Below, piece by piece: positions 7,607 to 62,699 of a DNA stretch of 64,000 nucleotides. The position numbers were made by a program, and so were the translations under genes. This DNA comes from Boswellia sacra (Eukaryota > Streptophyta > Magnoliopsida > Sapindales > Burseraceae). Location of the stretch: NCBI GenBank assembly GCA_013180625.2, contig SNVD02004611.1:142048-206047 (forward strand), given 5' to 3'. Numbering within the stretch: the first letter of the stretch is position 1; every line of letters begins with the position of its first letter. Under the pieces are notes generated by a model that was given only the letters and a program-made list of their open reading frames with translations, was not told the origin of the DNA and ran no database searches.

Positions 7607-7906
7607 ACCCACTACAGTCTCTTTGCAGTTAGCTGACGGTCTATTAAGCATCCAAAAGGAGTGATTGAAGATGTGCTGGTCAAAGTAGACAAATTCATCT
7701 TCCCATATGATTTCATTATGCTTGATATAGAAAAGGACAAGGATGTGTGCATTATCTTGGTAGACCATTTTTGACAACTGGTTGGGTATTAATTAATGTC
7801 TAAAAGGGTGAATTGAGATTACGCGTACAACAGGAAGAGGTAATATTTAATGCTTTTAATGCTACGAATATCCGGATGACATTAGAAATTGTTTTCAAAT
7901 TGATGA

Positions 7907-9130: not shown

Positions 9131-9156
9131 AGGCTTTCGAGACTCTAAAAGCAACG

Positions 9157-23900: not shown

Positions 23901-24959
23901 TTTAACATAATTGATTTTTTTAAGAATTCATAAAATTTATTTTAATTTGTTATAAATTCGAAAATAAAATAGCAAAATTATGACATTATGCAACAGAATT
24001 CTTTGTAAGAATAATTTTATTAAATAATAACAAATTACAAAAATTTAATACAACTTGGAACTTTGGTTGTACATGGAAAAATAAAAAAAAATAAAAAAAC
24101 AAGATAATACAACAAATACAAAACTTCATCCTCCACTAAATTTTTTGTTTCTTGATTTTATATCAATCTTCAAGTCTTCAAATGTACCACACCTTCAATT
24201 ATACCTATTAAAAACAAAAAAGAAGTAAAATATTAATTAGTAATAATATAGGATATGAGAGATAAGTGTATACAAAAAAAAATGTTAAAGAAATAAAGAA
24301 CTTAAGATTTTTAATTGCATTCCCTCTTCCAAAATACCATTAAACAAAAAAGCATAATATTAATTGACAATTAAAAAATAAAAATTATATGAATCTTGAA
24401 AGTAAATATATTACAACATAAAAGAAAAAATGAGTAAAAATATTTACCTTGATAATAGTGTTAGGGAAAGAAGAGAAGTAGATAAAAATGAAAATGAAGA
24501 GGAAAGTAGAATAGATGAAAGAAAATGAAGTAAACCAAAGAATTAGGTGGTGTATATATAATAAAGGCATTGATTTTTTGCGATGAAATTTGGACATTTT
24601 GCGACGAAAAATTTGTCGTAAAAGAATTTAAAAAATATGAAATAAATAGGAGCGGTAAAAGTCCGCCTAAAATTTTCTTTTTGCGACAAAATTTTGGTCT
24701 TTAGCGACAATGTTTTTGTCGCTAAAGGTGTAAAAATTTGAAATTTAATAGGCGGGAAAAGGTCCGCCTAAAATTTAGTTTTTGCGACGAATTTGGATTT
24801 AAATTTTCCTCGCAAAAGACCCCATTTTGCGAGGAATTTTAAAGTGGTCGCTAAAAGTCTAAAATGCTAATCTTTAGCGACAAAATTCTAATCTTTTGCG
24901 ACAAAAATTTTGTCGCAAAAAGTCTTAAAAAAATATGAAAATTAAAATCTAAATCTAAA

Positions 24960-26570
24960 ATTAAAAATATTTAAATAAACAATACTTAGACTTGGATAAT
25001 TATAAGTTTATTTATTAATTAAATTTTCATTCATAATTAAACTTATATAATATTGGATTGGTATTAAATAATTTGATGACAAATTAATAAATAATATAAC
25101 AACCATATACAATAGAAATAAAAAACATTATATGGTATTTAATTATTTTTTATTGAGTATTAAAATGTTAATAAAATAGGTACAACAACTCAAGAATTAT
25201 TTAACAAATGTAAACAATAGTTAGACATTTATACATATGTCATAGTTGTTATATGAAGAATTACAAAAATAAATTTCTTTAATGATCAATAAATAATTAA
25301 TTATTTATATTATAATCATATATGTAACAAAAAGATTCTATTCATTTTAGCTATAATTTAATTTAATTATCTATTTCTTTTAAAAACACTAAAAATATGT
25401 TTTACAAATTTAAAAAATTAATTTGTGATGGAGATAATTTAATTATTAACATATAAACGTATGTCATAATTGTCATATGTATTAAAGTCTTAAGAAAATA
25501 CACACAATTCAACTATCATTAATAAATGCATAATACTTAAACATCTATACATATGACATAATTGTCATGTGCGAGTTATTGAAAATAATTTTTTAATACT
25601 TTAATAAATAAATGATCAAATATTCATATTATAATTATTATGTAACAAATGCATTTACTTTTAGTGAATATATTTTTTATTATTTATTCATTTTACAAAT
25701 GCTAACAATTAATATTTAAAATATCTTGACAAATGCAAACCATAAGTTTGTAATAGTTGTAATTTAATAATTAGATATCTATATATGTCATATTTGTTGT
25801 TATAAGAAATTGAAAATAAGCTTTTCTAATTTGATTAGTAAATGATTACTTATTCATATTATAATTATATAAAATGTAACAAAATTGCATTTATTTTCAA
25901 GTATAGAATGCCTTTAAATTAATTATCCATTTTTTTATAAAAATAACAATTATTAAAAATATTTTTTACAATTATAAAAAATATTTTTTCATATAAGTAA
26001 TTTAATTATTAGACATATATACATATACATATGCTACAAGTATCATATGTATTACGAATTGAAAATCAGTTTTTGCCATTTACCAGGAAATGATTAATTA
26101 TTCATATAGTAATCAATATGTAACAAATGTATTTATTTTTTGTTATAGAGTTCATTTTAATTAATTATCTCCCTTAAAATAAACCCTAACAATTGTTTAA
26201 AATATCTCAACAATTTACTCAAAGCTATACGATAAAAATTAAAAGTCTAAGAAAAATATACTATCTAAATTAATACACTTTATAACAAAAAAATAAAAAA
26301 CATAATTATAGGCAACATTACATGATTATTAATTATTTATTTATTTATGTTTATTTGACATATAATTAACATTGAAAAATAAATTCGATTTTTAGAAGTT
26401 GGATTTTTTTTCCAATCTCGTTTTCATCAATTAAAAATTAGTCATAGTAATACGTTTATCATAATTGTAATTTAGCAGTTAGACATATATAAATCATACA
26501 TAAATTAGATTATATATAAATAATTAGCAATAAATTTTATGCTTGATTATTGGATTATTAACGATTCATA
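24960..26570. repeat. Degenerate ~240-330 bp tandem repeats inside CACTA 1
   Basis: Two landmarks recur in order: TCATATTATAAT(C/T)A...GTAACAAA (near 25305, 25620, 25850, 26095) and ACATATGTCATAATTGTCATA-like blocks (near 25215, 25455, 25545, 25790, 26025). They mark about four to five heavily diverged units. The same series is visible in CACTA 2 at 45640-46560. Confidence 0.6.
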
Positions 26571-26572
26571 TC

Positions 26573-26605
26573 ACACACACACACGCACGCACACACACAC
26601 ACACT

Positions 26606-26642
<37 letters not shown>

Positions 26643-26646
26643 ACAC
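26573..26646. repeat. (CA)n microsatellite
   Basis: An almost uninterrupted AC run with a few G/T/C changes, ending in TATATATA, inside CACTA 1. A shorter relative stands at the matching place in CACTA 2 (46677-46700). Confidence 0.9.
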
Positions 26647-26944
26647 ATATATAGAGTTTATTTTAATTATTTATCTCTTTTACAAATACTAATCTTAATA
26701 GTTTTTCACATTTAAAAGCATGAATGGAATCACAAATGGTCTTTTTTTTTAATAAAAATTTATATGAATATCCAAATGGCCCTACTATATTTAAAAATTA
26801 TCAATTTATATAAAATCAAATTAGATTTTTAATACTTTCTTTATTCTTTTTTTTAGTCATTTTTTAAACAAAGACTTATATATTAGACGAATCATAAACA
26901 AAGAGAAGAAAACAAAAGAAGATAGTTATTAAGTTTTAATTTTA

Positions 26945-27984
26945 AAAAAATAACTTTTTGCGAGGAATTTTTTGTCGCAAAAGGTCTATTTTTTGTCGCA
27001 AAAGGTATATTTTTTTCGAGAAAATTTTCCTCGCAAAAAGAAATATTTTGCGAGAAAATTTTCCCCGCAAAAAGTGACATTTTGCGAGGAATCACGTTTT
27101 TCTCGCAAAAGGTCCAATATTGCCACGTGTGTATAGTAAATTAAAATGGCTTTTCGCGAGGAATTTTTTGTCGCAAAAAAACATATTTTTTGCGAGAAAA
27201 TTTTCCTTGGAAAAAGTCACATTTTGCGAGGAATCACGTTTTTGTCGCAAAAGGTCCAGTATTGCCACGTGTGCATAGTAAATTAAAATGGCTTTTCGCG
27301 AGGAATACTTTGTCGCAAAATAATGGACCTTTTGCGACAAAAAATTCCTCGCAAAAAGTCACATTTTGCGAGGAATCACGTTTTTGTCGCAAAAGGTCCA
27401 GTATTGCCACGTGTGCATAGTAAATTAAAATGGCTTTTCGCGGGGAATGTTTTGTCGCAAAAAATAGATTTTTTGCCGCAAAAAATCAATTTTTTGCGAG
27501 AAAATTTTTCTCGCAAAAGGTCACATTTTGCGAGGAATTATTTTTTCGTCGCAAAATGTCTAGTATTGCCATATATGCATGGTAAATTAGAATGGCTTTT
27601 AGCGGGAAATTTTTTGTCGCAAAAGGTCTTTTTTTCGCGAGAAATATAATTTTGTCGCAAAAAATGTTCATGTTGCTATAAAATTTTTGTCACAAAATCC
27701 CATCTTCGTGTAATACGTTTTGCGATGAAAAGTTTGTCGCAATAGGTTTTATATCGTCGCAAAAAATGCTTCCCCAATTAGTCACTAGAGTTTTTAGCGA
27801 CGAAATGAATATTCATCGCTAAAGGTTTTATTTTGCGACGAAAAATTCCTCGCAAAATATCTTTTCTTTTGAAATGCTAACTTTTGTGACGAAATTATAA
27901 TTTTGTCGCAAAAGGCCGCTTTTTGCGACGAATTTTATTTCGTCGCAAAAAATTTTGTCGCAAAAAACTGTTTTTCTTGTAGTG
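26945..27984. repeat. Right subterminal array of CACTA 1 with ~145-bp units
   Basis: Besides the GCGA(C/G)GAA motifs there is a longer unit of about 145 bp, marked by TATTGCCACGTGTGCATAG followed by AATGGCTTTTCGCG. It is seen four times (near 27118, 27262, 27404, 27566). Each unit has several binding-site-like motifs, so the array multiplies them. Confidence 0.8.
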
Positions 27985-33691: not shown

Positions 33692-33803
33692 TAAGTCATA
33701 AATCGAATTTCACACAATTTGTTTTTTTTATTTGATTTTGATTGGTGAATTCTAAAGGAGAGAGATCTAAAATATGGAGAAGAGGGAAAGTCCATATTAT
33801 AGA

Positions 33804-34528
33804 TGTTAAGACCATGGATCTCCCAAAACTTTACATTGGTATGATATTGTCCACTTTGGGCCTAAAACCTCATAGATTTGCTTTTGGATTCTATCCAAAA
33901 GGCCTCATACAATGGAGATCTTGTCCATACCTATATGCCTATAATCCTCCCCATGTCTAGTCAATATGGGACTTTGGTTGCAATCCCAACAATCCTCTCC
34001 TCAAACAAAGGACCACATCATTGTGATATTTTTTTGGGTCTCCCCTTAAACGACTATCCATCCGTTCCTATCATCGAGTTTCGCTACCTCGAGAGCTACT
34101 CTATCTAGGCAAACTCCTCTTCATCATGTTAGGATCAGGACACGTTCATGAAGCATCTGCAGCATATCGTCTTGATCCATTAGAGCCTAACTACGGATCC
34201 AATTGTGAGCTTTTAACTGAGGCCCAGGGCCTACCACCTTCGTTTCGCATAACTGGAGCCCACAAACCTTTGTTCAGCACTCCGACAATTTTTCGCACAC
34301 ATTCTTTTGGCTAAATCTGGGCCTAGCTTTGATACCATTTGTTATAATTATGGGGCTCCCAAAACTCTACATTGGTATGATATTGTCCACTTCGGACCTA
34401 AGTCCTCATGGATTTGCTTTTATATTCTACCCAAAAGGCCTCATACTAATAGAGATCTTGTCCATACTTATATGCCTGTGATCCTCCCTATATCTAGCCA
34501 ATATGGGACTTTGGTTGCACTCCCGACA
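33804..34528 (-). mobile_element. TRIM retrotransposon copy 1, complete (725 bp)
   Basis: Two LTRs of about 188 bp (33804-33991 and 34340-34528) flank a 348-bp interior. Right next to the right LTR is the complement of a primer-binding site (TGGTATCAAAGC, 34326-34337, matching the initiator Met tRNA 3' end), so the element runs on the minus strand. The flanks ATAGA (33799-33803) and ATAAA (34529-34533) are a 5-bp duplication with one change. No coding capacity: a terminal-repeat retrotransposon in miniature. The same family recurs at 51194-62694. Confidence 0.85.
34326..34337 (-). promoter_or_regulatory. Primer-binding site of TRIM copy 1
   Basis: On the minus strand TGGTATCAAAGC lies just inside the 5' LTR. 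It is complementary to the 3' end of initiator Met tRNA, with one probable mismatch (A for G). Confidence 0.75.
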
Positions 34529-34904
34529 ATAAACAGTGATTTGGATTCCCTTCTAAGAAGAGGGAAAGTAGATATCATGGATTTAGAGATAAGAAAATTT
34601 GACAAGAAATTTGATTTGATTGTTGTACCCAAGATAATTTGATTAAAAAAACCTACCATTGGATCTACCTGAAGATTCATAAGATAAATGGCTTGAAGAA
34701 GCAGACTCTACAACCTTCAGATTAGATGTAGAAGAAAATGGAAATAATGTTCATGTTATTTTCTTGTTTCTTTCTTTCATTTTTTTTAAAATATTTGATA
34801 GGCGCTCGGGGTATCTTTCATGCATGTATCCTTATATTTCTTAGTATAAGTCTATCATTGTGGTTTTTGGATTCTGCTATTTGGTTAAACTATTTTGGTG
34901 TTTC

Positions 34905-39608: not shown

Positions 39609-40409
39609 CTATAGCAGGCTACCAATAATGCTTCTATACAAACTTGCATCAACATTTTTTCCTACATTGTCTTTTGAAAGTTTAAGGTTAGTATTGATAG
39701 GAGTTTTCATTGGTTTTGATTTCTCAAGCCTAAATTTCTTTACAAGATTTTTTGCATATTTTGATTGAGATATGAATATCCCATCATTCATTTGCTTAAC
39801 CTGCAATCCAAGAAAGAAATTTAGTTCTCCTACCATGCTCATCTCAAACTCTTCCTGTATCAACTTAATAAACTCATTAGTTTTGCGTTTGTTAGTTTAT
39901 CCAAATACAATGTCATCCACATATATTTGAGCAACAATAAAATAGTTAAATGCATGTTTGATAAATAAAGTCTTATCATTGCTATCTCTTTTATATCCTC
40001 TGTTGATCAAAAAATTTGTCAACCTTTCATACCAAGCTCTAGGAGCTTGTTTCAAACCATATAAAGCTTTGTATAATTTGTATATAGGATGTTTAGGATC
40101 TTCGAAACCCTTAGCTTGTTCAACAAAGACTTCTTCATTAAGATAGCCATTTAAAAATGTTGTTTTAAAATCCATTTGGTACAACTTAAAATCAAGCAAA
40201 CAAGCAATTGCAAGTAGTAATCTAATTGATTCAAGTCTGGCTACTAGTGAAAAGGTTTCATCAAATTCTATGTCTCCTACTTGTGTGTAACCTTGTGCAA
40301 CTAGCCTAGCCTTATTTCTTACTACCTGTCCACTTTTATCAGTTTTGTTTTTGAATATCCATTTAGTTCCAATGACATTTGCATTTTCAAGCCTAGGAAC
40401 TAATTCCAT
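39609..40409 (-). pseudogene. Ty1-copia 2 reverse transcriptase
   Basis: The open frame 40409-39897 contains [51 protein letters not shown] and the catalytic YVDD near 39906-39917. It then meets a stop within the FG(stop)TN stretch. The second piece (39863-39609) carries GELNFFLGLQVKQ and SQSKYAKNLVKKF. In MDFKTTFLNG the usual VKSAF has changed, but the catalytic Asp residues are there. Confidence 0.88.
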
Positions 40410-41050
40410 ACTTCATTTCTTTTAAACTGATTAAGTTCTTCTTGCATTGCCTGAATCCAAACATCTTCTTTTAAGGCTTTTTTAACATTTTTTGGTTCAA
40501 CTAAAGAAACATAACATGCAAATCTTACCTGATTTCTTTCCTTGCTCTGAGTCTTCATCATACCATCTGGTGTTCCAATGATAGAACTTGTTGGATGTGC
40601 CTTCTAAATCCAAGTGGGTGGATCTTTTCTTTCATATTCATTCCTTATTGAATTTTTGTTCAAATCTGAGTTGTCAGTTGTTACAGTTACGTTGGGTGTA
40701 ACAGCAACTGTTTTCTCTTTCACAACAGAGTCATCTTTATTACTGTAGCTGTCAGAATTTGATTTTTCTGTTTCTTCTGTAAAGCTAGTTATGTTTTCCT
40801 CTTGTGAGTACTTTGCACAATCATCCAGATCATCCAATACTACATTTGCAGATTCCATGACTGCCTCAGTTCTCAGATTGTAAACTCGAAACGCTTTGCT
40901 GTTTTCTGTATATCCCACAAAAACTCCTTCATCATTTCTCAGATCTAATTTTTTTAACTACTCTCTGCGATTTAAGATGTAACACCTGCATCCAAAAACA
41001 TGAAAATATTTCAAATTCGATTTTCTACCTTCCAAAATTTCATAAGGTGT
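40410..41050 (-). pseudogene. Ty1-copia 2 integrase C-terminal tail and RT linker
   Basis: Coding-like pieces link the integrase core to RT. The open part 40918-40604 starts in GYTENSKAFRVYNLRT, typical of the copia integrase C-terminal region, and goes on through an acidic Ser/Asn/Thr-rich linker. Confidence 0.75.
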
Positions 41051-41803
41051 CTAGTTAGTGCCATGTCTTAGAAAAACTCTATTTGAAATATAACAAGCAG
41101 TACTTTTTGCTTCAGCCCATAGCCTTTTGGTCAACTTTTTGCTATTGAGCATCACTCTAGCCATCTCTTGAAGAGTTATATTCTTTCTCTCCATAATGCC
41201 ATTCTGTTCAAGTGTTTTGGGAGCTAAAAATTCATGATCAATTCCATGATATTTGCAAAAGTTAGCATAGCTAACGTTTTCAAACTCCTTTCCATGATCA
41301 CTTCTTATTCTCACAATCCTACCAATGTTCCTGTTTTGCTCATTTTCAAGTTTAACATAAAGATTCCTGAAAGCTTCAAAAGTGTCAGATTTTTCTTTAA
41401 TAAAATCAACCCAAGTGTATCTAGATAAATAATCCATACAAACAAATATGTATCTCTTACTGGTAATGCTTTCAATTTGCATAGGACCCATAAGATCCAT
41501 GTGAAGTAAATCAAGTATTTTGGATGTGCTAAGATATAGATTTGATTTGTGGGAACTTCTAATTTGTTTTCCCATTTGACATGGTCCACAAATTTCATTA
41601 ACTTTGTTATCAAGTTTAGGGACTTCTTTTACAGCACCTAACTTAGTTAATTTAACCAAGTCTTTGTAATTTAAGTGTCCTAATTTTTGATGCCACAATT
41701 CTAAATTCGAAATCCTAGCTTGAAATGCAATCTTTACCAAATAACAATTATCCGAAGATCTATTACCTTCTAAAATGCATTTACCAAAATTATCTAAGAT
41801 CAT
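41051..41803 (-). pseudogene. Ty1-copia 2 integrase core
   Basis: A 250-codon open frame shows the zinc finger (WHQKLGH and CGPC) and the DDE core: D in LLHMDLMGP, D in IRSDHGKE, and E in GIMERKN. The usual PQQNG before the Glu reads LEQNG. The Arg/Lys-rich segment after the core is present. The frame is continuous, although flanking pol is broken. The protease region (41804-42240) only survives as short pieces. Confidence 0.88.
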
Positions 41804-42763
41804 GCATTTGTTTTGTGTGAAATTAACAATATACTTGTCATCACATATCTAACTAATACTAATAAGATTAGCTTTCAAACCTTTGACCAACAAGACATTT
41901 TGAAAGTTGGGTAGGCCTTTGAAATTTAAAGTGCCTTTACCAATAATCTTACTTTTTGCTCTATCCATAGGTGACATTTCCTTCCCTGTATGCTTAAAAA
42001 TCTGTTAAAAACTGTTTATTTCCAGTCATGTGCCTGGAACAACCCCTATCAAAATACCACAAATCGTTAGATGATTGGTTAAGAGGAGTAAGAGCAACAT
42101 GGCATATTGTCTTGTCTTTATTAACCCACTACAGTTGTGATTTTGGTAACAGTTTGAACTGTTTTAATCTTTTATGTAAAAGATTCAACAATTTAAAGCA
42201 TCTAGGCCTGATATGTCCCTTTTTACCATAAAAATAATAAGTAGGAATGAATTTTCTTACCTTTTCAGGACTGGATTTGAAAGAATTCAGAGGAGAAACA
42301 AGTGTTTCATTACTCTTTGAACTAGGACTCGACCTTAAAGAGTTAAGTTCAAAATTTTTACCTGATGTTGAAGCTTTTACAAAAACTATTTTTTATGAAG
42401 ATGTAATATTACCTTCTATATATCCTAATCCATGTTTGTTGGACTTGTCTCTTCCAAGACTCAAGACCTGATCAAGTTTGACTGCCCCAATTTTGAGTCG
42501 ATCAATATACCTTTTGCTTTCAACCAGTTATGTTGTAATTTTCTCAATATATGCTATTTTGTCTGTCAAAACAGTCTCAAGTTCTGTGATATGTTTTTAG
42601 CATATGATTTTTCACATTCCAACACTTCAATCTCCTTCTTCAAGGTTTTGATTTCTTCTTTCTGACTCATCCATTCACTATAGAGTGCATTGTAAGTTTC
42701 TTGCAACTCATAATATTTGGGACCATCCTCTTTATCTGAATGATCAACGCTGATTTTTTTATT

Positions 42764-43831
42764 TTATGTTATGTCAGACATAAGAACTTTCCCTTTATCA
42801 GATGTAGATACTGTAAATGCAACAAAATTACTCATGCAATCTTGATCTTCTGAATCCGATTCTGATTCATCACTCCAAGTAGCTGTCAGGCCTTTGTTCT
42901 TTTTCTTGAGATTAGCAAATTCAGACTGAATATACCTATAACTAGAACATTCATAACACTGAATCTGCCCTTTCTTATCAAGTTGTTTTGACTTCTTCTT
43001 ATCATTCTCCTTGTTGAACTTTCTGAATTTTTCTTGATTTGAGTTTGATGGTCTTCCTTGATTCTTTTTCCTGAAATTTCTTTTCATGAACTTAACATAA
43101 TTTCATGCTAGAAAAGCTATTTATTTAGAATCAGTTTCATCAAGCTCATCATTACTTTTATCCTTAGATTTTTCAGTTTTAACATTGAATGCAATGCTTT
43201 TTCCTTTTTGCTTCCTAGTACTTTGATTAATTTCAAAGTTTTGGAGAATGCCAATCAGTTCATCAACCCTCATCTCATCAGTGCTTTTAACTCCCTCAAT
43301 GGCAGAAATTTTAGTTTGAAATTTATCTGGGACATACCTAATTATTTTGCTAACAATTTCTGCATCAGTGAAAGTTTTTCCAAGCATGTATGTCGAATTT
43401 GTGATATGACATCTCTTAGAGTAAAACTCAGAAATTGATTCATCCTCACGCATCATCAAATTTTCAAATTGAGAATTTAGTTTCATCAATTTAGATCTTT
43501 TAACAGATACGGTACCTTCATGTTTTATCTCAAATATGTCCCATGCTTCTTTGGTCACTTTGCATCTAGAAATCTGTTCGAAATTGTTTAAGTCCACTGC
43601 AGTAAAAATTGCATTGAGAGCCTTTGAATTCCAGCTGGAACGTCGGTATTCTTCATCAGTCCATTCATCCTCAAGTTTAGGTTCGGAATCACCAAAAGCA
43701 TTCAACTTTGTAAGCGGTGTCCATCCTTTAAGCACACTAGTCCATGCCCTGTCATCAAGAGATTTGATATACATCATCATTGTTACCTTCCAATATGAAT
43801 AATTACTATCATCAAGAATAGGTGGTTGCAT
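42764..43831 (-). pseudogene. Ty1-copia 2 gag
   Basis: An open frame from 43831 to 43121 encodes the capsid-like part (DDSNYSYWKVTMMMYIKS, then SKALNAIFTAVD and MREDESISEFYSKRC). After a stop it continues at 43087-42764 with a Lys-rich segment and a ruined zinc knuckle, CYECSSYRYIQSEF. There the His is Tyr and the last Cys is Phe, so zinc binding is lost. Further broken gag/spacer sequence runs to about 42250. Confidence 0.85.
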
Positions 43832-43910
43832 TCCAGATCCTTTATTGCGAATAAACTATATTCTTCCATATCAACCTGATCGTTTTCTGCACTTGTCTAT
43901 CAGTGAACCT

Positions 43911-51188: not shown

Positions 51189-51258
51189 ATTAATGTTGAG
51201 ACTGTGGACCTCTTAAAACTCCACATTATTATGATATTGTCCGCTTTGTGCCTAAGCC

Positions 51259-52120
51259 CACTACAAGAAAAAATGCCATATTTGGCGGTCATAAAAACGA
51301 CACCAATGGCACCGCCAAATATGGTATATTTGACAATATTTGGTGGTAGGTCAAAACGCCAAATATGGTGTCAATAGTATTTGTCATATAAGAACGCCAA
51401 ATATAACCCATAATATACTGTTAAAAAAATCACATATTTGTCACTTTTTGTGACAAATATAGAGGTTTCTAACGGTCAAAATTTTGAATTGTAACATATT
51501 TATCGCTTTTTGACCGATAAATATGGCATAGTAACGGTCAAATTTTTTAAATTTCATCATATTTGGCGCTTTTTGAACGATAAATTTGATTCTCTACTAT
51601 ATTTATCGCTTTTTGTCCGATAAATATGGCATGCCAACGGTCAAATTATTTAAATTTCATTATATTTGGCGCTTTTTGTCCGATAAATATGAATCTTCTT
51701 TCTATTGTACCATATTTATCGCTTTTTGACCGATAAATATGGCATGCCAACGGTCAAATTGTTTAAATTGCATCATATTTGGCGCTTTTTGTCCGATAAA
51801 TATGGCATGATAACGGTAAAAATTTTTAAATTTCACTATATTTGGCGCTTGTTTATGGTTATGTAACGGTCAATTTTTTTAAAATTTACCATATTTGACG
51901 TTTTTTGATCGATAAATATTTCCTACCATATTTATCGCTTTTTGCCCGATAAATATGACATGCCAACGATCAAATTATTTAAATTTCGTCATATTTGGCG
52001 CTTGTTGACCGATAAATATGATTCCATGTTTTATTATACCATATTTGTCGCTTTTTACCCGATAAATATGGCTGTTGTACAATATTTATCGGTTTTTGAC
52101 CGATAAATATGGCTTTGTAA
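51259..52120. repeat. Left subterminal array of the Pack-CACTA
   Basis: Many copies of ATATTT(G/A)(G/T)CGCTTTTTG(A/T)CCGATAAATATG, mostly one orientation with inverted halves (CATATTTATCG / CGATAAATATG), are separated by AACGGTCAAATTTTTTAAAT-type spacers. The motif differs entirely from the GCGACGAAA type of CACTA 1 and 2, so this is another transposase family. Confidence 0.85.
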
Positions 52121-52408
52121 TTACAGATATGGTTTTGCTCCTTAAGAAACATAGTAGTACTAATTTTTGTTATTTTTCTACCCTGTACGACTTTGTCAAT
52201 ACTCCAATTTGGCATATACAACACACACAAATAGCTCCTCTCCTAGATTTATTATACACTATTGAAATAAATGATCTATGCGAGTGTTTAATTAAAAAGA
52301 GATATAAATAGTTCTTTGTAACAATCATAATAGTAGACATGTCAATAAGCAAATTAAATAGCATCAGAAAAAGAACAACTGAAGCAAATTTAAGGACACT
52401 TGCAGTTC

Positions 52409-52458
52409 TTAACCAGCAGCCACACTTTTTATTCGTTGCTCCTGCATTTCAGCACTTA
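52409..52458 (-). pseudogene. Candidate captured last exon, gene unidentified
   Basis: On the minus strand a good acceptor (TTTTGCAG) precedes 16 or so codons (SAEMQEQRIKSVAAG) and a TAA at 52409-52411, followed by AT-rich 3'UTR-like sequence. It sits downstream of the GC4 exons on the same strand. It does not match the GC4 exon expected next. Confidence 0.35.
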
Positions 52459-53064
52459 CTGCAAAAGTAGAGCAGATTGCAACCCCAAAAATTAGTCTTA
52501 TGGTACTAGAACCTAAGCTTACAATATTTGACAGTAATTTAAAGCATACCAATCATTCACTTTCAATTATGTCATGACATTTTTCGGCATATACCAAATC
52601 ATTCACATAGTTGTTGCATGTTTAAGAACAGTGAAAGAGACACTCACCATGTAGCCTTCTGTTAAACCAAAAACCTACTCAATTAATTTCACCATGTGCC
52701 TCAGTCAAATTTCAACATAATTTTAAACAGAATCTCATTTCAACAAATAATTTCATTTGAAGTCATCAGAATCTGTCATCAAATTTCAGCATATTTTAAT
52801 GAACTTCAAATGGGCAAAGTTCATATCTGTATACAAAATAAATTAGGACCAACTAACAACATAGTAAGTTAACCTGTTATACTAAAGCATGATAACTCCA
52901 AGGGATGTCCAACCATCTCTCCCTCCCCTCCTAAAATAACGGTATATATAGTCAAGAAATATATGAGGATTGTAAGAGAAATAGGCCAATTTGGAGCAAC
53001 CTACCAAACTGCTTTCTAAAGAAGCTAAGGCAAAATCTGAAATTCAGGAAAAGGATATATGAAC

Positions 53065-54928
53065 CTGGTTATCAGATGCCATGTTTGTACGTGTTTCGGC
53101 TGAATTTCCTGCCAAAATGCCACCCACTAAGCGTCCAGGTAGACCCAAAACTCCACAAACAACACCTTTACCTGCACCTTGTTGAGCAATGCCTATTCTC
53201 TGCTTTTCTTCATCAGTGAAGCCAAGCATGCGAACCATAAGATCCAGAACCTGAAATCCACCATTAGTAATTATGGTGATGTGCCAATTAAAAAAGAAAA
53301 CTAACGAAGGCAGCTACTTTAGCTTGGATGGAAGAAAAGGCATCTCTGTTCCCCTAACATCTAAAATGCACAAGTTGAAGTTTAAAGTAGAGATAATGTA
53401 TAACCAAAGCTTTAAAATGACTGAAACAAGACAAGACTTGCCAAAATCGACCAATTTCTTGTGGCTATGTGGGTTTTGCAATAGTGTATACCTGATATGT
53501 TAGATTCTTTTTTGACAATAAGATGTTGGTCTTTGTTAATCATCTTCTCTTCTTTCACCAACTGGTACCTGCCTCACTTCATCCCTCAAAGTTCAAATAG
53601 AAGGGATTGGGGACTGGGGGAGAAGGAATCACCACTTTCTTACAATCATCTAAAAGGCAAAGATTTGGCTGAGTGGGAACCTCAACCAACTTTGAATCAT
53701 GAATAAGCAAGCATGTATGAAAATGATGTACAAAAGATCTTCATCTTCAAACTTTATTTTTATTTATTTGTTCTTTGATAGGACATCTTAAAACTTTAAT
53801 AATCATAGTAAGAAGCATTCTTACCTCTTTACTATGGTTTTTTTGGAAGTATGTAATCAATAACTTGATCAAAATACGCCTGCAACATTACCAAGCAATG
53901 ATCAAATTTTGCAGTTTCAACTTCTATGTGTTGAACATGGGAAGATTCATTCAGAAACAAAAGAGATTGGATCGCATAATGTTCTGCTGTAGCATCACTA
54001 TTTTTTAGATGAATAAATCCAACAACAAAAATAACAGAGACTTAATTGCACGTCTAGATTTCTAAAAAGCTAACCTGTCAACAAGAAAATCAGAATCCAC
54101 AGACATTCGGTTGAGCCTTGTCATGCTTTGCTCAAGAGCCCGACGTAATTTTGCATTATCTTCTTCAAGCTTGTTTACTCTACCCTTTCCCTCTGCCAGC
54201 ATCTTTTCAGTTTGTGAAAGCTTAACTAAAGTTTCTTCCTTTTCCCTCCTTACTACCTGTGCTAGCTCATCCGCATCCTGGTGAAGGAATATAGTTTCAA
54301 AAACATGATGCAAACTCACTTTTCAAAATTCAAATGCACTTCTGTTTATCCAGGACACTGGGGAATTTCTACAGACTTAAAAGGTAACATCTGAGGGGGA
54401 TCAGCAGATTTTAGTGTTTGCATGCAGCTGACTACAACTAATGCAGCACTAAAGTAGTGAATCATCCATTCTAGTTCTTGTGTGAGATAGCTAATTTTAG
54501 TGTTTCCATGCAATATTTCATCATAAGAAAATATTTGTGTGAAATTCAAGCCAGAAGGTCTATAAATTGTATCTAAAGATGAAAATAGTTCCAATCAAGT
54601 TCCAAAAACAGAGAGATGGGTCATACTTTCAAACGCTCAGAAAGCTTAGCTGATTCTTCTCTTGCCAAAGCCAACTCGCGTTCCAAATTTCCCTGTGCAT
54701 ATGACAATATAGCTGGTATAAAATCCAAAAAGCCCATTCTTTCAGTAGTAAAAAACACAAAAAACAGTTAAAAATCTGTTACCTTAGCTTCAATTTCAAC
54801 AAAGTACTGGCCAAGAGCAGTTTGAAGATTTAAAAGTTCAATATCTGAACCCTTTGGTGTTCATTATTCTCACAAAGCTTTTCAATGATCTTACTATCCT
54901 CATCCATTTTTTCCGATTCCTCATTTTC
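53065..54928 (-). pseudogene. GC4: Golgin candidate 4 (GC4) gene fragment, five exons
   Basis: GC4 is a coiled-coil Golgi tether with a GRIP-related ARF-binding domain. Minus-strand exons with GT-AG borders: 54928-54783, 54692-54627, 54277-54075, 53879-53825 and 53250-53065. They encode EESEKMDEDSKIIEKL; NLERELALAREESAKLSERL; the long coiled coil ending MTRLNRMSVDSDFLVDR; the ILIKLLITYFQKNHSKE segment; and VLDLMVRMLGF through KGVVCGVLGLPGRLVGGIL to ASDNQ. The last four exons keep one reading frame. In the first, two originally separate exons are joined near 54845 with loss of the region between, shifting the frame. The N-terminal half of the protein and the C-terminal exon are absent. Confidence 0.85.
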
Positions 54929-55134
54929 CTAGAAAATGATGAAGAAAGAGAAACCAGCTTCAATTTTCTTTGTCCATGTCTTTTTCTGGCTTTCTTTTTC
55001 TGTTTCTTTGTAGCAAGGTCAACTTGGACAACCACTTCATCATTAGCATCAATCAAAGGACCTAAATGCATATCAGCATCCTTGGTAACTACTTCAGTGA
55101 GTTCCCTGAGCAAGTTGCAATAAAAGCGAGACAT
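54929..55134 (-). pseudogene. Unidentified coding-like stretch upstream of the GC4 exons
   Basis: From an ATG at 55134 an open frame runs 68 codons to the GC4 exon border, with TEVVTKDADMHLGPLIDAN and a very basic KKQKKKARKRHGQRK segment. Composition looks like protein, not AT-rich intron. I do not recognise it; it is neither GC4 nor coatomer. The frame continues into the GC4 exon out of register. Confidence 0.35.
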
Positions 55135-55215
55135 CAGAGGCCAAACCAGTTAGTTCTCTAAAAGCTAATAAAGAAACAGAAACAAGCACAATCGGCATCA
55201 TGCTTATATTAGACC

Positions 55216-55344
55216 ATCTTCAAGAATAACTTCACCTTCTGCTTTCAAGGATTCCAAGAATTGGTTTGTCCTTTGGGTTTTACCACGCTGCATTCCAAGA
55301 CCCTTAGGAGGAGCCGTGGCAGATGAAGCTGGACGACCTGATGA
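55216..55344 (-). pseudogene. Coatomer subunit delta (delta-COP) fragment
   Basis: Delta-COP is part of the COPI coat on Golgi vesicles. About 43 codons on the minus strand read [18 protein letters not shown], then [19 protein letters not shown] and ILED. This is the linker between the longin-like N-terminal and mu-homology domains of plant delta-COP. No stop occurs in the fragment. It is one exon or part of one, with no further delta-COP sequence nearby. Confidence 0.8.
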
Positions 55345-56373
55345 TACGAGTATACAAAGAGATAAGAATTCTCTCCGATTCCTAAACCATTACCAAAAGT
55401 AATCCTAAAACAGATGTATCAGTAGAGTTTAGAAAGAGGGAAGACAAAAACTTCTTAACAACAGAATAAGTGTAAGCTATCTACCTAGATACGCAAGAAG
55501 ATGGAAATTAACAACATCAACACACACGTAAAAATTAGAAACAAAATCAGATTTTGCATTATAATAATGCTCAAACCATCAAACATGTAAAAATGAAAAA
55601 CTCTCAAGAGTATCTGAAACTAAGAAACTAAAACCCGACACAGAGAGAGAGAGGGGGATTGTCCTCAAACCATTCACAAAAATTAAAACATTATAATAAT
55701 GCTCAGCTCTTTGGATAATGCTTAAACATAAATTTAGTAGCTAAGAAACGAAAGAGCTAGAAACAGAGCATTTCCATTTCTGAACATGGCATCCAAATAA
55801 AAAGAATAACTGGAATTAAAAAGAACAAGGAAGGTAGTGACCCCAAACCTTAAATGCAAAGTGGGGATTTGAACTTGCCCCAATTGTTACAGCACATTTG
55901 ATTTTACATCAAAAGCACTGCATAAATTAGCTTTTAAGCTGAAAATCTGTCATACACAGAAGCATTGGTGTCAAAATCTCTTCTTTTAAGAGGAAAACTC
56001 CTTATTGGGCAAATAAATTATAGTAATAAATCAATTCTCAATCGAAGTTGATTAACATTCATAAGAAACTCCATGTTTGAAGAAAATTTGGTTCAAGGGA
56101 GTGACGAAAATAATGTAACCCACAAGAATCATAAAAATCTCCACAGTTTCCTACATTCTCAGCAACAAGCACATAGTCTCATTTTCCTCACTAAAAACAA
56201 CCAAAACCCACCAAACTTTCTTCAAGAAATCGCTCACATTTGATCCTCAAAGACTTGAAACATGTTTCTCGACCTCCAGGAAGTCAAAAAAATGAAACCA
56301 ACCCAGTAACCACATTCAAAAACAAGATTACCAAAAACACAGACATACAGAGAGAGAGAGAGAGGCTTCAGAC

Positions 56374-56606
56374 CTGGGATTCCTTGTATGAACCGGAAGC
56401 TCTCGGACAGCCACTCATTGGTTTGTTCATTAAATATTGTATAAATGAGACAAATGCAACAGCAAAAATATTGCAAAAAGTTCTTTGAATTACTAGTTTT
56501 TCAGCAAACACATATCTTAACAAGAATAAAGCTAATCAAAGGAAGAAAAGAGAAGGGTGTGGAAGAAAAAGAAGTATTTATGAAAGGGTGGTGAGGGATT
56601 TATATA
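56374..56606 (-). promoter_or_regulatory. Candidate captured promoter and first exon, gene unidentified
   Basis: On the minus strand a TATA box (GGACTATATAAATCCC, TATATAA at 56606-56600) is followed by a pyrimidine-rich leader and an ATG at 56430. Nineteen codons lead to a possible donor at 56373 (CCCAG then GTCTGA) and a CT-rich intron-like stretch. The set looks like a gene 5' end, but I cannot say of which gene. Confidence 0.4.
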
Positions 56607-56725
56607 GTCCCGCTTATCCTCCACCTCAGATAAACTTTTAATACAGTTTACTAAGGGCGTCTCTTGAAATGACAGTGCTTAATTCATAAATCTACCCATA
56701 TTTCTGAAAAATAACAAATATTTTT

Positions 56726-56789
56726 GGAACATAGGCTAGTAGCATGAGACTTATTGTGGAACATAGGCTAGTAGCATGAGACTTATTGT
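56726..56789. repeat. Perfect 32-bp tandem duplication
   Basis: The unit starting GGAACATAGGCTAGTAGC and ending ACTTATTGT occurs twice head to tail with no difference (56726-56757 and 56758-56789). Identity implies recent origin inside the Pack-CACTA. Confidence 0.95.
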
Positions 56790-56993
56790 TATTAGGATAG
56801 GACAGATGCATCATATGATCAAATTAATGATTCCGATACTCCACCGCCCAAAACTTTAAGATAGAAAACTGAGAGCATATAACAATTGAAAACTTTTGTC
56901 TCAAATTTAGATTGTTTCAAATTGATTAATAACTATTGCCAGGTTTAGATAAAAAAAAACAACTATGATCTTTTCCCAACAGATTAATAACTA

Positions 56994-57740
56994 TTGCCTA
57001 AGATTAGACCCTGCCTCATTTCGAATATTTGCATCAGCTGATTGCGCAGCCAATAGAAACTGAGTAATCTCCATTGCCATGTTCCAACACTATCCCTAAA
57101 TTATTAAACAGAAAACATTAGCAGAGATGATAGAAATCAGTACTAGTAAAATTTCAAATAAATTCGAAATAGTTCAAGAGCAAAACAAATGGAATCAAGT
57201 TGCACAGATGCGCCACAACATTCATCAATCAAATTAAGCATCGAAATATCCTTTTCAACATGCTATATCAATTGACTGACTAACTAGAAATTAAAAAAAA
57301 AAAAATGTATCAACTAACAAATTTCACAAAAATATCCATATAAATTTCACTCATTTGCATCCCATATATTCTATTATCAATGCTCATACCCATGCGCACA
57401 ATAATGAAAATTTGCAGGAGATATAAGACAGTAATCTTACATATCAGTAACCATTAGATATCCAGAAATACAAAAGCAAGCAATAAATCTAAGAAAAGAG
57501 AAAGAGAAATAAAACCATAAGCAAGCTTAAAGACATTCTTAGAATCATTAATTCACGAAGTCTGAGCAAGACCCAACAAGTGAACCACAACAGATCTATT
57601 CACGAAGGGAGAAAAATAAGGAAATTGGAGGAGAAAAATACCTGAAATTAGTTCAAAGTAAACCACGACAGACACTATATCTTCCACTGAAGTTTGAGTG
57701 GAGCTACGGTTTCTCTTTCTCTCTCTCACTCTCGGTAGTG
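56994..57740 (-). pseudogene. KPNB1: Importin subunit beta-1 fragment: 5'UTR, leader intron and start codons
   Basis: Importin beta-1 carries cargo through nuclear pores. On the minus strand, ATG at 57080-57078 opens 29 codons (MAMEITQFLLAAQSADANI, then RNEAGSNLRQ) that match the N-terminus of plant importin beta-1. They end at a breakpoint with TAG at 56993-56991. Upstream is an AG acceptor (near 57097), a 540-bp intron with GT at 57641-57640, and a 5'UTR exon ending at 57642. That exon holds a CT-rich leader (about 57700-57740). The promoter-proximal region was therefore taken along. A GATTAATAACTATTGCC direct repeat (56922 and 56982) marks the junction. Confidence 0.82.
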
Positions 57741-59085
57741 AAATTATTGAAGAGAGAAATAGAGATCAGAATTTTGAAAAAAGAAAAAAAAATTTGAAAG
57801 AGTTCACAAGGTCTTCAAAGGGCGACTTGGTGAGATATAAACCTGGCAATCATATTCGTGCATTATATCTTTCAAATAAATAGTTTCCTATTGTTGACAA
57901 AACATTGACTTTGCCAGGCAAAAACTACACATAGGCGCTCAAGGACAAATAAGTAAAACAAGTGAATGTAAGCCAACAATTTAAGGTAAAGCTAGTTTCT
58001 TTTCGAAACCTCAGCAACCAAACAAAGTATATAACAATAATTCAATAGCATTAAGCAAAAGTGAATGAAACCCAGTTGAGCTAAAGCAGCAAGTAAACAC
58101 CTTGGAGATAATTTTCAAGTCAAAGTTGTTAAAATGGTCAGGCAGTAATCTTCGTAGCATAGCTTTGGTTGCTAACTTTTGAGTTGATCACATATAAAAC
58201 AAAATCCATGACACACCAGGTGAAAAACATGAGGAAAAAATGTGATGCAAAAGGCCAGTCTGCAACAAAGTCGATAAAAGAATGCTTAAAATTGCTTTGA
58301 AACAAAACTTGTGATATCCTTAGCATTAAAGTGTACATTTACTAAAAAATAATTTTTTTTTTCTTTCAACAAAATAACAACCAGTACACTATCATGGAGT
58401 CCTTTATTAAGCATTCATAGAGATTTAATTCTTAGAAATTTAACCATGCATAAATATAAAGTATAGAAATTTCCATGAGTTAGGCCTAACAAATTCACAA
58501 ACTTATAAGAAAAATGCAGTAGAAAGTTAAAACTAAGCAACTAAACAAGTTTCTGCACATACCAGATTAATAAAGCATGGAACCTGAGTAAATGAAATTG
58601 GAGAATCTCCTGTGTCATTCTTATATTTTTAATTGTATTCAATGATCAAACTAAATATTTTTAGGTCAAAGTTTAAGTAGTCATAGGCTGCAACAAAGTT
58701 AAACCATTGATATCATCATATTACTTTAATTAGTAAGATTCTTAAAATAAAAAATAAAAAATAAATTAAAAAAAATATACCAACCTGCAGTTATCGAATT
58801 AATCTTTCCTTATGAGTTCCCTTTTTTGTAACCTTTGTATAGCTCATAATTTATCTTGCAAGGACTTTTGCACCGCAGATTTAAACCTTGATCACATGCA
58901 TGTTATTTCTAGATCTAAGAAGAAAACCAAATGATCAAATTTCATTTCTGCCATGCAAAACACATATCACATTCAAATTCCAATAAAAAATCAAATGATT
59001 ATTAATTCTATTAAAAAAATAGATTAAAATTTTCCAATAAAGTATAAGCAAGCCAAGTATAAGATATAACAATCCAAACATCTAC
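57741..59085. other. Pack-CACTA interior without identified gene
   Basis: An ORF at 58338-58138 (minus) is rich in Phe and hydrophobic residues, but I do not recognise it. The rest is AT-rich, intron-like. It may be intron sequence captured along with ABCC13 or the importin promoter. Confidence 0.4.
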
Positions 59086-59197
59086 CTCAGACTCGAAAGC
59101 CCTTATGGTTGATGATCCATCAAGTATCTCAGTAAATGATGCATACATGGGAGAACGAGAAATACTATCCAGCCTTCGCAGTTCCCTTGATGTTGAC
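59086..59197 (-). pseudogene. ABCC13: ABC transporter C family member 13 (ABCC13/MRP) exon fragment
   Basis: ABCC13 is an MRP-type ABC transporter. One exon on the minus strand encodes STSRELRRLDSISRSPMYAS and then FTEILDGSSTIRAFESE, the cytoplasmic loop of the second membrane domain. It has an AG acceptor (TTTCTACAG at 59200-59198) and a GT donor (59085-59084). The upstream codons for FFYR are in place before the acceptor. No stop occurs in it; no other exon of this gene was found. Confidence 0.78.
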
Positions 59198-59750
59198 CTG
59201 TAGAAAAACTGAAGAATTCCAAAGTAGACGGATTTGAACTTTAAATATAATTCTGTTCCATTGACAATCAATTTAAGACGGAAAAATCATACGAATTTTT
59301 ATATCCTAGTTTTAATTAGTTCAGGTCCAATCTTGGTTGCATCTTAAATTCCTAGAATCAGATATTCCAGAAGATATATTAACTTATGATACTTCAACCC
59401 TTGAATCAAAGACTCACAAGACAAATGTCCTCGTCAGTAAACCTTCAAACATTGTACCAAATGTCCGATGCTTAGTAGAAAAGGGTTTGCCACATTAACT
59501 AATACATATTTTAATGGAAATCCGTCTAGCTAATTTCAAGTTCAATTAAAGCATAAGGAAATTAAGTCTGAATTTCCACAGCCAAGAATAAAACCGGCAT
59601 GAACCACATAAGCTTAAAAATTTTCTAGAAAACAAGCAAAAACCAAGTTTAATGGTAGAAACTTATGAAGCCAACCAGCAAAAGAGTCATACTAAGAAAA
59701 AGGGAGTAACTACAATAACGAGGCAAATATCAAAAGGATAAGAAGAGTAC

Positions 59751-61060
59751 CGTTTCAACAGCATTCTCAAACAACTCTCTTGCCCTTTCAAGTTTTGTCT
59801 TTCCATATCTCTTCACAAATTTTGAGAGGTATGTGACTCAAATATCTTTTACATGAGGGTACTTGAAAATCTTGACACCTTTTTCATACACTTTAAATGC
59901 ATCTTCAAAGTATTTATGCTCCTACAAAAGTTAAGAGTGAAAATATCATCATATATAATCTGATAAAGGAACAAGGAATACAACAGGAAACCAAAGGAGA
60001 TATATACATACTTCCAAAAGTAATGCATATTTTATGATAATATGAGGTGTGGCAATTCTCAAATCCAATATCTACTCGTACACAGCTCGTGTGGACTCCA
60101 AAGAAGCGAGGCTCTCTTCCAAATCAACATAAAAGGTCCAAAGTCTCAAGGATTTATGCAGCTTCATCTGAACTGGTTCATTTCCATCAGCAGCCACTGC
60201 AAGTGAAAAAATAAACCAACAGATCGAAGATTAGGAATTGTTCCACAGATAGCCTATGACACAAAATGAGACAGAATAATGATTACCTCTTCGTTTGACC
60301 TCTATTGATGGCTCGGCTGTGGCTCATCTCATCAGATCCAACGCTCCTTTAAAATTTTTATGCCTCAACTCCATTTCTGCCCACTCACACCAAACACTGG
60401 CCAGGTGGTCCACAGTCTTGTAGTTCACTTGCACTATTTTATCAAAAATCACTCTTGCATTGGCAACATCCTTGTGGTTCTCATAAAGCTTGGCAAATGC
60501 AACCCACAGAGTGTGAGGCTTTCCCACAGCTTTCATGGGATCAATGGTCCTCACTTCCTCTGTGTATGTCAAAATCTGCTTCGTGGGATTACCTCCAAAT
60601 ATCTTGACCCTCCTATGCCACTGTTCCACATTATGTGGATTTTGTCTTAAGAGAACACTGTTAGCCAATTCTGGCATCCTATTTATCAGATGCTCCAGTC
60701 GAGCCAACCTCAAATCCACATCCTTGTCATCATGTAACCAAAACCCATGAAGAATCTTCTTCTCAAGTTTAGCAATTGATAAACTGACATCTAGTTGAAC
60801 ATCTTCATCTTCCTCAAAGCCATTCTCCTATAGCCATCCTCTTCTTCCTCATCACTCGACTCCATAGTCTCCATCTTATGTGCAACCATACTCCCCTCAA
60901 ATTGAGAGTATGCATCAAAAATAGCACTAAAATCCCTCACAGTAACCACTGTTGACATCCCTTCCTCAAATATATCTCTTGCCTTCTCAAACAAATTTCT
61001 CCTAATATAATAATCAGCCAACGATGTCCACAACCTCCCAACCTCGTCAGTAAACAAGTA
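59751..61060 (-). pseudogene. SYF1: Pre-mRNA splicing factor SYF1 (XAB2) fragment with stops
   Basis: SYF1 is a HAT/TPR-repeat protein of the spliceosomal NTC complex. Minus-strand exons: about 61060-60287, 60196-60012 and 59921-59751, with GT-AG borders. They read FTDEVGRLWTSLADYYIRR, ARDIFEEGMSTVVTVRDF, DVDLRLARLEHLI, NPHNVEQWHRRVKIFGGNP and VDHLASVWCEWAEMELRH; then NEPVQMKLHKSLRLWTFYV; then HKYFEDAFKVYEKGVKIF and FVKRYGKTKLERARELF. A frameshift lies near 60800 and stops near 60328 (Arg to TGA), 60077 (Arg to TAG) and 59838 (Trp to TGA). It covers the middle HAT repeats, about 290 residues of some 900. Confidence 0.88.
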
Positions 61061-61189
61061 CCTGAAGCTAGCTATCTATGTACCAGAATGGCAACAGTAG
61101 AAGTAAGAAGAAGACCTACACATACAGACAACTTTTAAATCAAGAGCTCGTTTCTCAGGTTGGTTAAAGGATTAGATTTTTTGTAGATT

Positions 61190-61700
61190 CAAAGCCTCTG
61201 CTTCCCATAATCACCACACTCAGTCCCAACCTCTCCACCTCCAAGCACAGCCTCTCCTTCATGTCGTGGTCCTTCACTATATGGATCTTGAACGGGAGTT
61301 GCGCCTCCACCAACGGCTGTGCCAGATTGTTCGCTTTCATCGTTGTGAAAAGATCAAAATCATCTTTGAGCTTCTGCTATGACTCCTCCGACTCCATCAT
61401 TTCCACCGGGAGCTCAATCGCTCCCCAGTCCGTGCCTTAGAGGACGCTGGTGGGACGCACGTGGAGGAGGATGATGTTGTCGCCTTAACGCAGGTAGTTC
61501 TGAACCGCCCATTTGACGGTAAAGGCGCTCTCATCGCTGAGATCGACGGTGATCCCGATTTTCCTGTGGTCCTTGATGTCACCGTGGAAGTCGACGGGAA
61601 TCATGGCGAGTGGTTATGGCAGAATGAAGCGGAGGTCCTGGAGGAGCACGGCCGAGTGGTTAGAAGTTTAGGCTTGCCGTTCAGGGATTAGGGTTAAGCG
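61190..61700 (-). pseudogene. PHOS32-like universal stress protein fragment with stops
   Basis: Plant PHOS32-type USPs are small cytosolic ATP-binding stress proteins. The minus strand reads an N-terminal AVLLQ-like linker, then RKIGITVDLSDESAFTVKWA, IILLHVRPTSVL, TDWGAIELP, DDFDLFTTMKANNLAQPL, PFKIHIVKDHDMKERLCLEV and LGLSVVIMGSRGF. It breaks off near 61190 before the C-terminal ATP-binding GS. Stops at 61487-61485, 61439-61437 and 61379-61377 are all in one frame. GC content is clearly higher than in the rest of the window. Confidence 0.85.
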
Positions 61701-62490
61701 AAACATCTCTTTCCTTATATACGATATGAAATTTTGAGAAAATCCCCATCTATTAAGACTTGTCAAAATTATCCCTGTAAATTACATAATAATCCATATA
61801 TTCTATAAATTTTCAAATACTTTATAATACGGAGTAAGACAAAAAGTTTTGTTACTGTATATGCTTGTCTACATACTTGGCACTATCTAAAAATGTGAGA
61901 AATATATAATAAAGTCAAAACAGTGAGTGACAAATATGAACAAAATGTGAGTTTGACTTTTATATTAAGGTTATATTTCTCACTTCTTTAAAAAACCGCC
62001 AAATAAAAAAAATTCAAAGTGACAAATATATGAAAAATTCTTGTAGTGGCCCTTGTGGATTTGTTTTAGATTATATCGAAAATGTCTCATACCAATGGAG
62101 ATCTTATGTATGCTTATATATCTACGATCTTTCCCATATCTAGCCGATGTGGGACTTTGGCCGCACACCCAACAACCCTCCCCTCAAACAAAGGACTACA
62201 GTATTGTGATTTTTTTTCGAGCGTCCCCTCAAACGATTATCCATCCATCTGCTCCATCGAGTTTCGCTATCTAGAGAACTACTTTATCTAGGTAAACTCC
62301 TTTTCAATCGTGTCGGGGTCAGAATAGGTCCATGAAGCATCCGGAGCACATCGCCTCGTACAATAGAGCCCAACCATGGACCCAATCGTGAGTTTTAACT
62401 AAGGCCCAAGGCCTGCCACCTTTTTGAAGTAATCAGAACCTACTAACCTTTAATTCGGCTTTTCGAAAATTCTTGCTAAGCCTGGGCCTA

Positions 62491-62505: not shown

Positions 62506-62694
62506 TGTTAAGACTATAGAACTCCCAAAACTCTACATTGGTATGATATTGTCTACTTTAGGCCTAAGCCTTTATGGATTTGTTTTTGGATTCTAACCAA
62601 AAGGCCTCATACCAATGGAGATCTTGTTTATATTTACATGCCCATGATCTTTCCCATATCTAGCCGATGTAGAACTTTGGTTGCACACCCAACA
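62506..62694 (-). repeat. 5' LTR of TRIM copy 2 (189 bp)
   Basis: On the minus strand it starts TGTTGGGTGTGCAACCAAAG and ends in TCTTAACA. It matches the LTRs of copy 1. The AAAGTTC(C/T)ACATCGGCTAG block near its start is shared by all LTRs of the family. Confidence 0.88.
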
Positions 62695-62699
62695 ATTAA

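Follow-up and report, generated by a model that had tools for sequence, protein, structure and literature searches.

Introduction

How cut-and-paste transposons collect genes is an unsettled question, and it is raised in a direct form by a locus in the genome of Boswellia sacra. The locus was studied within a 64,000-nt stretch of DNA (C2324:142048-206047), here called the window, and was compared with the plant's own genome of 638,608,913 bases (638.6 Mb) in 7431 contigs. The element concerned, at positions 51259 to 62048 and here called the window copy, had been predicted from its letters to be a Pack-CACTA transposon with fragments of at least six host genes on one strand. We found that it is a non-autonomous CACTA transposon of the Pack-CACTA kind and that it carries fragments of at least seven host genes, all on the minus strand. 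Multi-gene Pack-CACTAs are already known; the new part is the one-way pattern of the cargo in this family, which was seen in a small sample.

If cargo throughout the family runs one way, gene collection by such elements may follow a rule. If the pattern holds family-wide, either capture is tied to transcription or there is selection against antisense cargo, and, if true, it would explain how these elements can give rise to chimeric transcripts in the sense direction instead of silencing their donors by antisense RNA. The family offers intermediates (with and without a SYF1 piece, with a longer or shorter universal stress protein (USP) piece, and with and without the loss of TGS1 sequence), and the presence of donor genes in the same assembly, together with junctions that bear repair marks, allows a direct comparison of capture models. 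Of the results, the apparent one-way cargo and the capture steps inside the element most deserve further study.

Ends, target site and class of the element

On the plus strand, the left end of the window copy reads GCC followed by CACTAC (GCC, then CACTACAAGAAAAA, at 51259), and the right end reads GTAGTG followed by GCC (TTCTTGTAGTG, then GCC, at 62048). The terminal arms, 51258-51284 and 62023-62049, were 74% complementary over 27 nt. A left subterminal array of 12 degenerate copies of a 46-nt unit occupies 51427-52120, and the subterminal repeats of the right end consist of a weak 21-nt pair only. The CACTA termini, the perfect GCC duplication and the subterminal array of the original prediction were all confirmed. 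The element is 10790 bp long and is seated in repeated sequence; its joined flanks aligned unbroken to 33797-34240 of the window (79% over 447 nt). Because the joined flanks match an uninterrupted repeat, both ends are those of a single insertion. This unbroken match and the sister copies described below ruled out ends contributed by two unrelated elements, the arrangement that had been named as fatal to the prediction. Copies of the target repeat lie at 33797-34240, 34361-34529 and 62506-62695.

The whole cargo was also found in two sister copies, C5305 (13394 bp, duplication ATA/ATA) and C6548 (13446 bp, imperfect duplication ATA/ATG), in which the same gene order stands again between CACTA ends. 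A further copy, C5140, is ended by its contig end. Among the loci sharing cargo modules with the window copy, gene order was read through in C5305 and C6548 only. The window copy differed from them at 214 of 10744 and 215 of 10723 sites, respectively (2.0%), and the sisters differed from each other at 200 of 13313. Because two more full-length copies hold the same cargo, chance is excluded as the source of the arrangement.

Terminal CACTA inverted repeats, a 3-bp target-site duplication, left subterminal repeats and a related copy (C5576) that encodes a Tnp2-type transposase place the window copy among the CACTA (En/Spm) elements. Host gene fragments with donors elsewhere (six of seven donors) and mobilisation as a unit (two full-length copies with other flanks) are the features of a Pack-CACTA. 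The longest frame of the window copy is that of SYF1 (167 aa), and no transposase was found among the ten frames scanned by Pfam, which are a subset of all its frames. The window had no Rfam match at gathering scores.

A search with the left 862 nt gave 40 scored loci out of 1283 candidates; other loci that share this left end are called siblings. The left 1312 nt (to 52570) was 94-95% identical in C4631, C5399, C1326, C5733, C5576 and C4816 and 85% identical in C1806, followed by divergence. Only C4816 (84%) and C5399 (74%) of these seven siblings also matched the right end.

Captured pieces and their donors

We defined a donor locus as one in which the gene runs on past the captured piece, end-to-end intactness being outside this criterion. 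As had been proposed, parents were sought in the own genome, and donor loci were found for GC4, TGS1, coatomer delta (COP-delta), importin beta-1, SYF1 and USP, on six different contigs (Table 1). All six of the genes originally named were present on the minus strand, but the seventh donor, TGS1, had been missed, and the piece called ABCC13 is not assignable below the ABCC level: this exon matched the PDB at 2e-11, whereas the PDB chain named ABCC13 scored only 0.003.

The SYF1 piece had matches of 1e-30 in Pfam and 1e-68 in the PDB, and the SYF1 donor protein was closest to mango (96%), with Dipteronia next among named plants (92%). The importin beta-1 donor gene matched PF03810 (2e-8) and the PDB (6e-7), and the COP-delta donor matched COP-delta in the PDB (3e-9). 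A 103-aa frame at 54838-55149 is the 5′ part of TGS1, as locus L045 has this frame together with the TGS1 domain. The USP piece scored 0.0014 in Pfam, below the cut-off, and its donor gene matched PF00582 at 7.5e-27. The USP, COP-delta and TGS1 5′ pieces gave no significant PDB match on their own. The golgin-type piece, which we take to be GC4, was given a name by no library, and the USP is presumably PHOS32-like. No gene could be named for 57837-59065, between the importin and ABC pieces.

Two of the assignments are less firm than the others. Locus L041 is 9.5% off the importin piece and may be a paralogue of the donor, and for the ABC exon there are two candidate donor loci at ~96%, C2976 (L039) and C7062 (L040). 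Another importin candidate, C6321 (L031), was ruled out as a donor, having the same broken junction as the element; beside its importin piece it has an extra serine/proline-rich minus-strand frame (L031:140-424) with no Pfam match.

Direction of the cargo across the family

The direction of the cargo was evaluated by scanning both strands of nine siblings (C2698, C2559, C5539, C1806, C2620, C806, C5576, C1729 and C3303) with Pfam, using the five longest stop-to-stop frames per strand on the inner side of the array, 90 frames in all, and E values up to 0.001. It was found that ten minus-strand frames match host families, equal to eight donors, and that all eight lie on the strand of the window cargo: Pyr_redox_dim, MEKHLA, FragX_IP (in two elements), LIM_bind, Mito_carr, NAD_binding_8, Xan_ur_permease and NIPA (two frames). 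The matches to Mito_carr, NAD_binding_8 and, in C2698, FragX_IP were just under the curated cut-off. The 45 plus-strand frames of the nine siblings gave no convincing host donor. Two of them are retrotransposon gag frames, a gag-adjacent frame matched TSC22 at 0.001 and had two weaker coiled-coil-type matches, and two more matches were at 0.005 and 0.006; all non-gag matches on this strand were below the cut-off. Five of the eight donors, FragX_IP, MEKHLA, Mito_carr, NAD_binding_8 and probably NIPA, can be assigned to mobile sequence, because they are shared by several loci or have element sequence next to them.

Frames picked by eye, outside this test, were all on the minus strand as well: S24e, LDcluster4 (presumably LOG-like), SBP, coatomer beta′, and Mito_carr and FragX_IP again. 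The frames of C5399, C4816, C5733 and C1203 were outside the Pfam scan, and parts of their cargo overlap scanned cargo. The suspicion that the intracellular transport theme of three window genes was coincidental is supported by the unrelated pieces of the siblings, among them ribosomal protein S24, LOG-like, SBP-box and mitochondrial carrier pieces, although these siblings also have a further coatomer piece (beta′). C2698 has a 79-aa open frame (L025:4340-4576) in which MEKHLA and FragX_IP pieces are joined.

The sibling C5576 relates the cargo to a transposase. It matched Tnp2 (PF02992, 6e-94), PF13963 and PF13952, its Tnp2, Transpos_assoc and DUF4216 frames are on the minus strand, and its left 4.4 kb is common to other siblings. 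No other CACTA-like end was found between the array and the transposase frames of C5576. The canonical 5′ end would therefore be the one on the right, and the cargo is likely to be in the sense direction relative to the transposase. Because of this likely orientation, element-driven transcripts would probably be sense, and not antisense, to the donors.

Our tentative reading is of a one-way collector, in which pieces are gained repeatedly by template switching and only those sense to the transposase persist, which would give one spliceable array of sense exons and exclude antisense copies of essential genes. Oppositely oriented pieces would be lost to a filter, the most likely cause being that their antisense transcripts damage essential donors or lead to silencing of the element. 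Several points weigh against this reading. No match was found in the both-strand test for C806, C5576 and C3303, three of the nine siblings. The Pyr_redox_dim, LIM_bind and Xan_ur_permease frames, 8.5 to 9.8 kb into the sibling sequences analysed, could lie beyond the element, and right ends were located for few siblings, so that some scanned frames are perhaps outside it. C5576 is not clean at its right end, where a matching duplication is absent. A grapevine CACTA element is reported whose PPR piece runs the other way (PMC2528002).

The orientation could instead be set at the capture step, if one particular end of the element always invades transcribed genes (R-loops) and only one direction is thereby possible. 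We consider this somewhat less probable than filtering after capture; the uniform orientation of the detected donors and their apparent resemblance to broadly expressed housekeeping genes agree with it, but nothing separates a capture-step bias from a later filter. That the common orientation is due to chance and small numbers is unlikely, though the numbers leave it some room: the two-sided chance is 0.008 for 8/8 donors only and 0.06 for 5/5 if the three unplaced donors are dropped, and several captured segments have no identified strand. Against chance stands the figure of 6e-5 for 15/15 when the seven donors of the window copy are included, although these seven prompted the question. Likewise, when 15 elements were divided into 245 bins of 500 nt (C5733, C5576 and C1806 having been cut beforehand at 6000, 7500 and 8000), 235 bins had more A than T, versus 54 of 101 bins in the rest of the window; the count was 9/13 in C1729 and 13/13 in each of C3303 and C1203. 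This skew carries less weight than the Pfam result, as the copies share sequence and flanks were positive too (C5305 +0.138, C6548 +0.049, C5399 +0.152; C4816 +0.01).

Order of capture and fate of the cargo

The captured pieces differ in their divergence from the donors: 9.5% for importin beta-1, 7.6% for USP, 3.8% for COP-delta, 3.3% for GC4 and SYF1 and 2.8% for TGS1. This spread suggests different ages of capture, the importin figure perhaps being an overestimate if L041 is a paralogue. Two loci, C3185 (L030) and C4776, have the ABC and USP pieces with ~607 nt between them in place of SYF1 (the sequence was seen for C3185). Because L039 and L040 also have this stretch next to the ABC exon, as judged by eye, SYF1 likely replaced part of it. 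In C5011 (L036), the USP piece is longer than in the window copy. In C1806, ~2.1 kb with an NAD-binding-domain frame interrupts sequence that is unbroken in C5399. The two sides of this insert correspond to C5399 positions 3166 and 2878, so that flanking element sequence is duplicated around the inserted piece.

Microhomology and templated filler are the marks expected from template-switching repair. The SYF1-USP junction has a 5-bp microhomology, TAAAC, shared by both partners, and the SYF1-ABC junction has a templated filler, with CCTCGTCAGTAAAC repeating the far end of the SYF1 piece. Weighing on the other side, clear repair marks were found at the SYF1 junctions only, and the other compared junctions had little or no microhomology. 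Taken together, donor divergence and copies without SYF1 make stepwise capture most likely. The element would be moved by a transposase supplied from relatives, and capture would proceed by synthesis-dependent, template-switching repair of breaks within it, with cargo that has the same direction as the transcription of the element itself.

Relative to the 13.4-kb sisters, the window copy is without 2.6 kb. Both sisters have an extra stretch at window position 54962-54967 (2604 bp in C5305) that holds TGS1 exons (PDB 3gdh, 7e-19) and, beside GC4, sequence present at the GC4 donor locus too. An insertion in the sisters was ruled out, as the stretch continues the TGS1 and GC4 pieces on either side. 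At 56722-56785, the window copy has a 32-nt tandem duplication, where both sisters are 31 nt shorter. Among the three copies, exons differed by 2.39, 2.34 and 2.01%, versus 1.54, 1.58 and 1.18% for other cargo, so that exons are not the more conserved part that a functional chimeric gene would have. In the window copy, the SYF1 piece has a 1-bp deletion and three stops that are absent from the sisters. Three stops also interrupt its USP piece, which falls 1 bp short of the length seen in both sisters, and 151 bp of one GC4 exon is lost in the window copy and in C5305. C-to-T and G-to-A are the largest class of changes among the copies, an excess that appears to resemble methylated elements. 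Because the exons changed faster than the other cargo, a coding function is unlikely, and the new proteins envisaged in the original prediction are unlikely to come from the window copy with its stops, 1-bp losses and GC4 loss.

It is accordingly very improbable that the cargo works as a chimeric gene maintained by selection. A 281-aa SYF1 frame is open in both sisters, and the private SYF1 changes (24 non-synonymous and 13 synonymous versus 890 and 232 sites) are under the uniform neutral ratio. Because of the transition-rich spectrum, which may explain the synonymous excess, we did not take these counts as constraint, and the faster change of exons (2.0-2.4% versus 1.2-1.6%) and the stops, frameshifts and deletions of the window copy argue the other way. 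The route of capture has a rival with a better, though still low, standing: two neighbouring elements could lose their facing ends and move as one with the enclosed DNA. Such hybrid elements were proposed for Arabidopsis Pack-CACTAs (Catoni 2019, via PMC13317346 and PMC8903248), and in L041 the importin beta-1 gene is preceded, at a distance of ~0.9 kb, by a CACTA-terminus-like stretch (~70%, L041:1-159). However, SYF1 is internal between two captured pieces and is absent there from C3185 and C4776, no CACTACAA end was found inside the element, and the six donor loci are on six separate contigs. It is probable, rather, that the seven one-strand fragments of this non-autonomous CACTA element were added serially through break repair that copied host genes.

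Comparison with known elements

In Tgm-Express1, a soybean CACTA element in the wp allele, five unrelated host genes have contributed exon and intron pieces that stand between CACTA ends (PMC1947982), an arrangement shared by the window copy. It is 5.7 kb long and is within a gene whose promoter drives chimeric transcripts, whereas the window copy is 10.8 kb (the sisters 13.4 kb), has seven donors and is in a repeat. The Tpn1 family of Ipomoea nil (339 copies, mean 7.1 kb) is described as non-autonomous CACTA elements with conserved ends and interiors swapped for host gene sequence (PMC5105172), the same layout as in the Boswellia sacra family in another plant. In a survey of Arabidopsis, rice and maize, maize Pack-CACTAs had the most distinct donor loci among Pack-TYPE elements, and element direction was set arbitrarily (PMC8903248). 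The hybrid-element model for Arabidopsis, as reported, fits the internal gain of SYF1 poorly. Single captures are described for Chenopodium CACTAs (PMC8978399). On wheat 3B, 140 CACTA capture events are reported, some chimeric, with some transcribed and under purifying selection (PMC4290129). The exons of the window copy, in contrast, changed faster than its other cargo. Helitrons are rolling-circle elements, unlike the window copy, and are without inverted-repeat ends and target duplications. In maize, their stepwise gain of gene fragments (PMC3288121) is alike. Among titles and abstract openings, no announced test of cargo direction in CACTA elements was found; Catoni 2019 and Kawasaki and Nitasaka 2004 were outside this search.

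Features of the window copy and other observations

Table 1. Positions in the window of the element's ends, captured pieces and target repeat
Feature	Position	Strand	Remark
Left target-site duplication GCC	51256..51258		letters at end
CACTA terminus and subterminal repeat array	51259..52120		80-95% identity with 39 other loci among 40 scored
Conserved subterminal stretch, inner edge of exchangeable cargo	52121..52570		sibling matches stop at 52570
GC4 fragment, exons and introns	52946..54967	-	96.7% to donor L038; lacks 151 bp of one exon, likewise in C5305
Junction of 2604-bp deletion	54962..54967		AATTTT at both edges of extra stretch in sisters
TGS1 (trimethylguanosine synthase) fragment	54962..55209	-	97.2% to donor L045; methyltransferase exons of sisters deleted here
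COP-delta fragment	55215..55551	-	96.2% to donor L037
Captured segment, no gene named	55594..56467		93% to C7103 (L032), a candidate donor
Importin beta-1 5′ region with first coding exon	56995..57836	-	90.5% to gene L041
ABCC-type transporter exon with intron flanks	59066..59423	-	~96% to L039, L040
15-nt filler	59424..59438		last ten bases and next four (CCTCGTCAGTAAAC) repeat far SYF1 end
SYF1 fragment	59439..61055	-	96.7% to donor L029; begins mid-exon, ends in intron
USP fragment	61177..61610	-	92.4% to donor L034
Right terminus common to other CACTA copies	61605..62048	-	84.5% to L035; probable canonical 5′ end of element
Right target-site duplication GCC	62049..62051		letters at end
Target-repeat paralogue without insertion (empty-site equivalent)	33797..34240	+	alignment of joined flanks

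A TATA-like ACTATATAAATCCC lies at ~56600 on the minus strand, outside the captured segment 55594-56467. In the siblings C4816 (L021), C5399 (L014) and C1326 (L016), ~600 nt near 2600 recurs near 9000 at 80%, an internal duplication. Elsewhere in the window, a second CACTA-type element of another family (TTTTTGCGACGAAA motif) occupies 23464-27984, with ends CACTACAGGAAAAATGAC and GTTTTTCTTGTAGTG and a matching ATG duplication, and comparable CACTAC ends, none with an evident partner, are found at 48251 (-), 37087 (+) and 63508 (+). Broken frames of LTR retrotransposons were recognised by eye at 434-4623 (copia-like, +), 7020-9800 (gypsy-like, +) and 39900-43855 (copia-like, -).

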